Part shown: piece after piece, positions 21,046 to 21,491 of the stretch
Layout: each line of letters opens with the position of its first letter
Position numbering within the stretch: position 1 is the first letter of the stretch
NCBI RefSeq assembly: GCF_002210105.1
Contig: NZ_AQQU01000002.1
Location: 248,001-312,000, forward strand
DNA: 64,000 bases
Origin: Oceanicola sp. 22II-s10i
GTDB taxonomy: Bacteria > Pseudomonadota > Alphaproteobacteria > Rhodobacterales > Rhodobacteraceae
Direction of reading: 5' to 3'
Position numbers and translations under genes: made by a program
The notes under the pieces: generated by a model
What the model was told of the DNA's origin: nothing
The model's input: only the letters and a program-made list of their open reading frames with translations
The model's database searches: none

Positions 21046-21456
21046 CTACCCGCTTTTTCCGTAGCGCGGAACCCTCGCCGGACCGTCGGCGCGCAGGCAC
21101 AGCTTGTCGACCCCGAGGCCGGGCAGGGCGTCGAGCATGGCCGAGATATCCTCGATATCCTCGGCGATCATATGGGTCACGCCGTTGTCGCGCTGGACCC
21201 GGCCCGTGACCCGCAGCATCCGCCCCGAGATCACCGCGCGGCGGAAGCGTTCGTACATCTTGCGCCAGACGATGACGTTGACGATCCCGGTCTCGTCCTC
21301 GAGCGTGACGAAGATCACCCCCTTGGCCGTGCCGGGCCGCTGGCGCAGGATCACGATCCCCGCGACCGTCACGCGGGCATTGCCCGGCGGCAGGTCGAGC
21401 AACTCGGCGGGGATCGCCGAGGGGGGCCGGGGCCAGTGGGGCGGACGCTGCGTCAT
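21046..21456 (-). CDS. stand-alone DnaE2-like OB-fold protein
   Basis: A 136-residue protein whose core (VTVAGIVILRQRPGTAKGVI, then TLEDETGIVNVIVW, and TGRVQRDNGVTHMIAEDIED) matches the C-terminal OB-fold module of the error-prone polymerase DnaE2. The polymerase and PHP domains are absent: the upstream 130 bp are noncoding in this frame and ferredoxin follows on the other strand. It is either a degraded fragment or an independent single-strand DNA-binding factor. A LexA box and promoter lie directly at its start codon. The first 20 residues (TQRPPHWPRPPSAIPAEL) are Pro-rich. Confidence 0.75.
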   Translation of the reverse strand: MTQRPPHWPRPPSAIPAELLDLPPGNARVTVAGIVILRQRPGTAKGVIFVTLEDETGIVNVIVWRKMYERFRRAVISGRMLRVTGRVQRDNGVTHMIAEDIEDISAMLDALPGLGVDKLCLRADGPARVPRYGKSG

Positions 21457-21458
21457 GA

Positions 21459-21491
21459 GAACAATTGTAGAACATTCCGCGCCGGTCGCAA
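21459..21491 (-). promoter_or_regulatory. LexA (SOS) box overlapping a leaderless promoter
   Basis: On the minus strand the sequence reads GTTC-TACAATT-GTTC, an exact alphaproteobacterial LexA site (GTTC-N7-GTTC) at 21459-21473. The -10 TACAAT (21464-21469) is inside its spacer, and a -35 TTGCGA (21486-21491) sits 16 bp upstream. The box ends 2 nt from the ATG (21456), so transcription should begin at or next to the start codon, giving a leaderless mRNA. SOS control is strongly implied by spacing and position. Confidence 0.85.

Follow-up and report, generated by a model that had tools for sequence, protein, structure and literature searches.

DnaE2 (ImuC) makes damage-induced mutations, the OB domain of the C-family polymerases contacts the single-stranded template, and GTTC-N7-GTTC is the LexA-box type of the Alphaproteobacteria. 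In cyanobacteria, the two halves of DnaE are rejoined by an intein. Among the closest described systems to the genes presented here, the ImuA-ImuB-DnaE2 mutasome has the same proteins and the same LexA control. According to the accessible parts of the papers cited here, the box type agrees with PMC6473078, dnaE2 genes away from imuA'-imuB have already been described (PMC3919608, PMC6511836), and several DnaE2 sequences lack the OB domain (Timinskas and Venclovas 2013, PMC3919608). Divided proteins are found there as well. ImuB, likewise a mutasome protein, can be present in two pieces, iPolY and a stand-alone ImuB-C (PMC12926913, PMC6511836), and the cyanobacterial DnaE is a C-family polymerase that is also split, by an intein (PMC3919608).

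In contrast to the ImuA-ImuB-DnaE2 mutasome, the polymerase chain of Oceanicola sp. 22II-s10i is divided, the OB domain is encoded by a separate gene with a LexA box, the four genes (OB, dnaE2 core, imuA, and imuB) are all unlinked in this genome, and neither half of DnaE2 retains the usual C-terminal R-D/N-F tail. The accessible part of the study by Timinskas and Venclovas gives neither the species with OB-less DnaE2 nor the fate of the OB domain, and the addition over these known sequences is the separate OB gene together with its operator. Compared with split ImuB, the subunit and the domain are different, and no homology is claimed. In the titles and abstracts of the open-licence literature we found no report of a separate DnaE2 OB gene, which might be mentioned in the cassette survey of Erill 2006 or in regulon databases. 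Our main reading, to which we assign a probability of roughly 0.8, is that the OB gene encodes a dedicated OB subunit acting in trans in a dispersed four-gene SOS mutasome.

The OB gene is located in the window, which is the whole stretch of 64,000 nucleotides that was analysed (Table 1). The best NCBIfam match of its product is the DnaE2 model NF004225 (108.7 bits), of which only positions 952-1037 of 1047 are covered, and by Pfam the protein consists of a single OB domain (one PF01336 match) with short tails. This confirms an earlier note on this DNA, which had assigned the 136 residues to the C-terminal OB-fold of DnaE2 only. The profile search does not identify the protein as a single-strand-binding protein (SSB), the score to NF005580 being only 16.1 bits at a cut-off of 254. 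The AlphaFold2 model has the expected fold (mean pLDDT 78.5), and Foldseek matched it best to various OB-containing proteins, with no DnaE chain among the 50 matches listed. The gene is under purifying selection, with a median dN/dS of 0.28 (232 of 253 pairs).

Table 1. Features of the OB gene and its upstream region, in positions of the window.
Feature	Positions	Strand	Remarks
Stand-alone DnaE2 OB-domain gene	21046..21456	-	136 aa, ATG start; ORF and family profiles; proposed trans OB subunit
OB domain proper, residues 29-104	21145..21372	-	PF01336, 58.5 bits (Pfam)
WPRPP motif, residues 8-12	21421..21435	-	Kept in stand-alone proteins; no occurrence found in the C-terminal parts of fused DnaE2
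LexA box GTTCTACAATTGTTC, exact	21459..21473	-	2 nt before ATG
-10-like TACAAT	21464..21469	-	Inside LexA box; 7 nt between TACAAT and the A of ATG
-35-like TTGCGA	21486..21491	-	16 nt upstream of -10
[2Fe-2S] ferredoxin gene, divergent	21588..21911	+	Fer2, 48.9 bits; context only

The window contains two exact LexA boxes compared to 1.48 expected from shuffles. A box is thus not above chance in the window alone, and the significance of the one at the OB gene rests on its place and its conservation. The second box (55088-55102) is located inside a long frame, presumably glyS, and was dropped as a probable chance match. The 5.1-Mb genome has 157 exact matches, as against 45 for the reversed pattern, and at that density the chance of an exact box in a given 6-nt slot is about 0.0002. 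In the same genome, lexA and recA carry exact boxes of this type as well. A further exact, AT-rich box of the LexA type (GTTCATGATATGTTC) lies near ORFs at G000:C12:419421-419435 (L256) and might belong to another SOS gene.

The box is kept in relatives, where the earlier note had proposed to look for it. Among 23 stand-alone OB genes, comprising the window gene and those of 22 relatives, 22 have an exact box, and the start codon follows within 1-5 nt in 18 and is absent from the first 5 nt in the remaining five. In the named loci (the best 80 of 594 relatives), four of which are also among the 23 genes, the box is exact in 75 and missing in five. Control windows of the same size, taken 800-1060 nt upstream, contain an exact box in 0/76 and a box with at most one mismatch in 3/76 cases. 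Four named loci have frames longer than 400 aa, and these were excluded from the counts of spacings and motifs, although exact boxes are present. The other 76 loci, with frames below 400 aa, have exact boxes in 71 cases, and the start codon is 0-6 nt away from the box in 64 of these, with a distance of exactly 2 nt being the commonest (46 loci), followed by 1 nt (11 loci). Whichever ATG, GTG, or TTG came first in frame downstream of the box was used as the start codon, a rule that biases these numbers toward short spacings.

The positions that the earlier note had given for the box, the -10 element inside it, and the -35 element were verified (Table 1). When the 23 promoters are aligned, the commonest bases at box positions 4-9 are T-A-T-A-T-T, and those at positions -18, -17, and -16 are T, T, and G (17, 14, and 16 of 23, respectively). 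Between the box and the ATG there is no space for a ribosome-binding site. With 7 nt separating the -10 element from the A of the ATG, the mRNA is expected to begin with the start codon. The placing of the promoter and the spacing of 1-2 nt in 57 of the 71 exactly boxed loci agree with the leaderless transcript proposed in the earlier note, and the OB mRNA is probably leaderless.

Searching the whole genome with Pfam DNA_pol3_alpha yielded two polymerases. One of these, a protein of 1176 aa (L009:2588-6118:+), has an OB match within its frame and was taken as DnaE1. The other one is the DnaE2 body of 1044 aa (P0001), which is encoded on the contig of the window about 63 kb away from the OB gene (G000:C12:202940-206074 (-), corresponding to L008:4940-8074:-). 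Its PHP (PF02811), Pol3 (PF07733), finger (PF17657), and HHH_6 (PF14579) domains all score above cut-off, and it stops right behind the segment to which the OB domain is joined in fused DnaE2. A small frame, which looks by eye like a cytochrome c, comes after it. At this dnaE2 locus Pfam detected no OB domain following the helix-hairpin-helix region in the same chain, and the window gene is one of five OB matches genome-wide, none of which falls on the dnaE2 locus. Upstream of the ATG of the body, GAACAAAACGTGAAT is by eye one mismatch away from a LexA box. Judged by their sequences, the window gene and the 1044-residue DnaE2 are the two halves of one polymerase. In contrast to the split-intein DnaE of cyanobacteria, neither half has a Pfam match to an intein family (E<=0.01), and therefore the halves should remain separate chains. 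Thus, as stated in the earlier note, the rest of the polymerase is not adjacent. The note had also held that a dnaE2 split by rearrangement, with the window gene as its displaced end, would count against its proposal. The polymerase body is indeed located elsewhere, so that the window gene is a displaced end, but this is not decay, because the split is old and both halves have been kept.

How the two halves are distributed was analysed in two samples. The first comprised 100 genomes searched with the OB protein, namely this one and 99 relatives, of which 60 belong to the family. Besides this genome, 22 have a close stand-alone OB (63-82% identity, at least 152 bits, frames of 132-343 aa), and G054 has a divergent copy with 39% identity, a frame of 115 aa, and an exact box. 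The OB domains in the long DnaE2 frames of this sample have at most 65% identity and at most 133 bits to the window protein. The stand-alone ORF, for which the earlier note had looked to the Rhodobacteraceae, is thus conserved in 24 of the 60 family genomes. All 24 also have an OB-less DnaE2, and 24 of the 25 genomes with an OB-less DnaE2 carry the OB gene, the exception being G020, which is 66% complete (Fisher p=7e-16 in the 60 family genomes, uncorrected for phylogeny). Fused DnaE2 is present in 31 of the 60, and 30 of these 31 do not have the stand-alone OB. The number becomes 32 of 33 if G004 and G042 are counted, where the OB matches, located in frames of only 397 and 213 aa, are the ends of fused DnaE2 with the SRDFH tail. 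Three family genomes (G024, G029, and G040) gave no match.

The second sample consists of 196 genomes, evenly drawn from the order and all listed as the same family, and among the matches listed the stand-alone form is present in 69 of them, which rules out that it is an assembly artefact of one genome. The matches listed are bimodal without intermediates, having either 128-399 aa at 189 bits or more, or at least 1,065 aa at 164 bits or less. In 65 of the 67 newly sampled genomes with the stand-alone form, a DnaE2 core was found at 71-81% identity, and the stand-alone gene is the sole OB match listed. The remaining two differ. In G192, rated 100% complete, the OB gene is present (218.5 bits) and a DnaE2 core was not detected at E<=1e-100; the core may have been lost or overlooked, or the OB gene may serve another purpose. 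G225 combines the OB gene with a fused DnaE2 and a fragment of a split core (66% identity over query positions 236-490 in a frame of 551 aa), which looks like a replacement in progress. These two genomes indicate that an OB gene may be retained in the absence of an intact partner, and that the link between the halves is not absolute.

This distribution bears on two other explanations. The earlier note had considered that the free OB protein could be a competitor for the partners of DnaE2, in which case it would limit mutagenesis. A single domain with a conserved N-terminal motif could in principle fill a docking site, and the co-induction with the polymerase would give a feedback. However, a competitor would be expected beside a full-length DnaE2, and instead the OB gene is found together with an OB-less DnaE2 in 24/24 and 65/67 genomes of the two samples, with a full-length DnaE2 coexisting only in 1/24 (G056) and 1/67 (G225). 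A competitor or brake is thus very improbable, and this suggestion of the note is not supported. Alternatively, the protein could have become a free single-strand-binding SOS factor that obtained its own job after the split, for instance in the protection of single-stranded DNA or together with ImuB, and the polymerase would work without it. G192 and G225, which retain the OB gene without an intact split core, would fit to such a role, and OB-less DnaE2 are already known, as far as can be told from the accessible part of PMC3919608. The missing of the OB gene in 30 of the 31 fused-DnaE2 genomes (32 of 33 in the wider count), however, fits a part of the polymerase and not a general factor for single-stranded DNA, and the closest profile of the protein is that of DnaE2 and not that of SSB (108.7 vs 16.1 bits). 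We therefore regard the free factor as unlikely, though less so than the competitor.

Within the genus of the window, DnaE2 is split in ten of 21 relatives and fused in 11. Because both forms are found in one genus, and because the OB gene is missing from most fused genomes, the two systems seem to be interchangeable. The strongest hint to the function of the trans OB subunit seems to be this replacement, in which, judged from gene content, the OB gene usually goes with its core. The two halves are encoded on different contigs in many genomes of both samples, and the closest pair on a common contig is that of this genome. The pairwise distances of core and OB protein correlate with r=0.77 (0/5000 shuffles as high), which is weaker than in the fused proteins (0.96) and partly reflects the shared descent of the species. 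Both systems are combined in G056 (contigs C1 and C4), where a chromosomal split set is accompanied by a fused DnaE2 that belongs to an imuA-imuB-dnaE2 cassette on a plasmid. Since its plasmid OB match starts at the coordinate also seen in NC_009957, this genome is apparently that of Dinoroseobacter shibae, whose plasmid cassette is noted in the accessible part of PMC9426580, and the predicted LexA sites for this species in the accessible part of PMC6473078 name other genes.

A maximum-likelihood tree was computed from 52 DnaE2 cores. In it, a single branch (SH-aLRT 99) separates all 25 split cores from the others, and the split character needs one change, which was reached in 0/500 shuffles. 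The tree is the result of a quick search, contains one long branch (G054), and was computed without the partial core of G043. The sequences nearest to the split clade are those of G025 and G038, which are both fused. G025 has dnaE2 and imuB on different contigs, which suggests, from this one genome, that the cassette was already apart before the gene was split. In addition, the ferredoxin gene (Table 1) is located divergently upstream of the OB gene in 71 of the 80 named loci (best 80 of 594 relatives) and was not found at the other nine, and this shared neighbour points to one ancestral chromosomal site. The named carriers in this set of the best 80 comprise Roseivivax, Salipiger, Roseovarius, Ruegeria, Marivita, Shimia, Rhodovulum, Tropicimonas, Planktomarina, and Palleronia, with R. 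lacuscaerulensis and R. marina among the Ruegeria species. All split genomes trace back to one event, and the numbers of sequences given here are not numbers of independent events. By the single clade in the tree and the co-occurrence of the halves, the split is old and not a recent breakage.

The age of the split also concerns the possibility that the gene is the decaying remnant of a broken dnaE2. Such a remnant probably exists elsewhere, as an annotated OB-fold gene on a Sphingopyxis plasmid (L255 5004-5405). By eye, a dnaE2 frame ends in front of this gene, and no exact LexA box occurs in the 10.3-kb stretch. For the gene of the window the single origin and the wide spread, the exact operator in 75 of 80 and the ferredoxin site in 71 of 80 loci (best 80 of 594 relatives), and the median dN/dS of 0.28 all speak against a remnant, which is hardly credible. 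The earlier note had argued against random decay from the precise SOS promoter, and the analysis supports a single-domain gene that is real, selected, preceded by an SOS-type operator, and conserved in relatives.

The split was accompanied by three further changes. Of the fused DnaE2 of the family, 27 could be parsed and 26 of these end with the tail SRDFH; the single exception is G051 (L096) with VREFR. G038 is not among the 27, because the linker pattern missed it, and its end is also SRDFH. At the level of the class, 14 of the 16 DnaE2 ends found have the pattern R-(D/N)-F-x, and two of 18 loci gave no end. The tail as a feature of DnaE2 was derived in the present analysis and not taken from the literature. 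None of the 48 split halves (25 cores and 23 OB proteins) has RDF in the last 30 residues. The motif WPxPP in front of the OB domain is present in 22 of the 23 stand-alone proteins and in 64 of the 76 named loci, with 12 loci not having it, and is found in none of the 27 fused C-terminal parts (0/27). The third change is a loop in ImuB with the string RSRA, which was found in 13 of 16 split genomes, by eye also with one change in G052 and G055 and not in G054, and in none of 19 ImuB from fused genomes. The loop is conserved in split genomes, approximately as RSGDAIDQEARATRSRA-KRRHW-RGG (L109-L114, L145-L154), and is predicted to be disordered in one AlphaFold2 model built from six sequences (pLDDT below 50 at 162-202). 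The loss of the tail, the gain of WPxPP, and the ImuB loop are consistent with a re-wired docking, and have to be counted as one coincidence because they share one origin.

The other genes of the mutasome also have operators. A box with at most one mismatch is located upstream of 22 of the 25 dnaE2 cores, five of these boxes being exact, and most of them have the form GAACAAA-N4-GAAT close to the start, with the box of L092 in the other orientation. The three cores without a box are L057, which runs off the contig, L052, whose frame begins late, and L102, which is G054. In this genome, imuB (G000:C1) has an exact box just upstream, and so has imuA (G000:C5). Of 16 split genomes read, 15 have an exact box no more than 300 nt from where the imuB frame begins, with none there in G052, and imuA has an exact box in each of the 11 split genomes inspected out of 25. 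ImuB matches are present in 25/25 split genomes, that of G054 having only 26-27% identity, and ImuA matches in 24/25, the missing one being that of the 66% complete G020. The idea that the OB-less DnaE2 belongs to a system without ImuA and ImuB was ruled out, as both are present though unlinked. The operator sequences predict LexA control of each of the four genes, to which LexA would bind.

The main reading, the trans OB subunit, could be pictured as follows. In one ancestor within the family, dnaE2 was cut at the boundary of the helix-hairpin-helix region and the OB domain, and the polymerase body and the OB piece are now encoded by unlinked genes that have a LexA-type operator each. DNA damage would relieve the LexA repression at all four loci together, and transcription of the OB gene would begin on the ATG or no more than about two bases away, giving a leaderless message for translation. 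Once made, the OB protein would attach to the DnaE2/ImuB assembly by its WPxPP tail, and perhaps also by the ImuB loop that was gained in the clade, and supply in trans the contact to the template strand that the fused OB domain gives in cis. Mutagenesis in the split genomes would depend on the OB protein. It is even conceivable, although doubtful, that OB is a dissociable and separately dosed regulatory subunit, which would have its own leaderless SOS transcript, dock with WPxPP on the ImuB loop, and switch a weak DnaE2 core to a working translesion polymerase, so that mutagenesis would be gated by assembly.

With the two halves recognized, the annotation can be corrected, since the small gene may otherwise be taken for an OB-fold protein without a known role, and the polymerase for a truncated one. 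G056 is a natural strain that holds the split and the fused system, and is suited to study the interference between both. Finally, the natural separation of the OB domain and the tail in a large family with many cultured members bears on the need for the OB domain in translesion synthesis and on the replacement of the lost tail of DnaE2.
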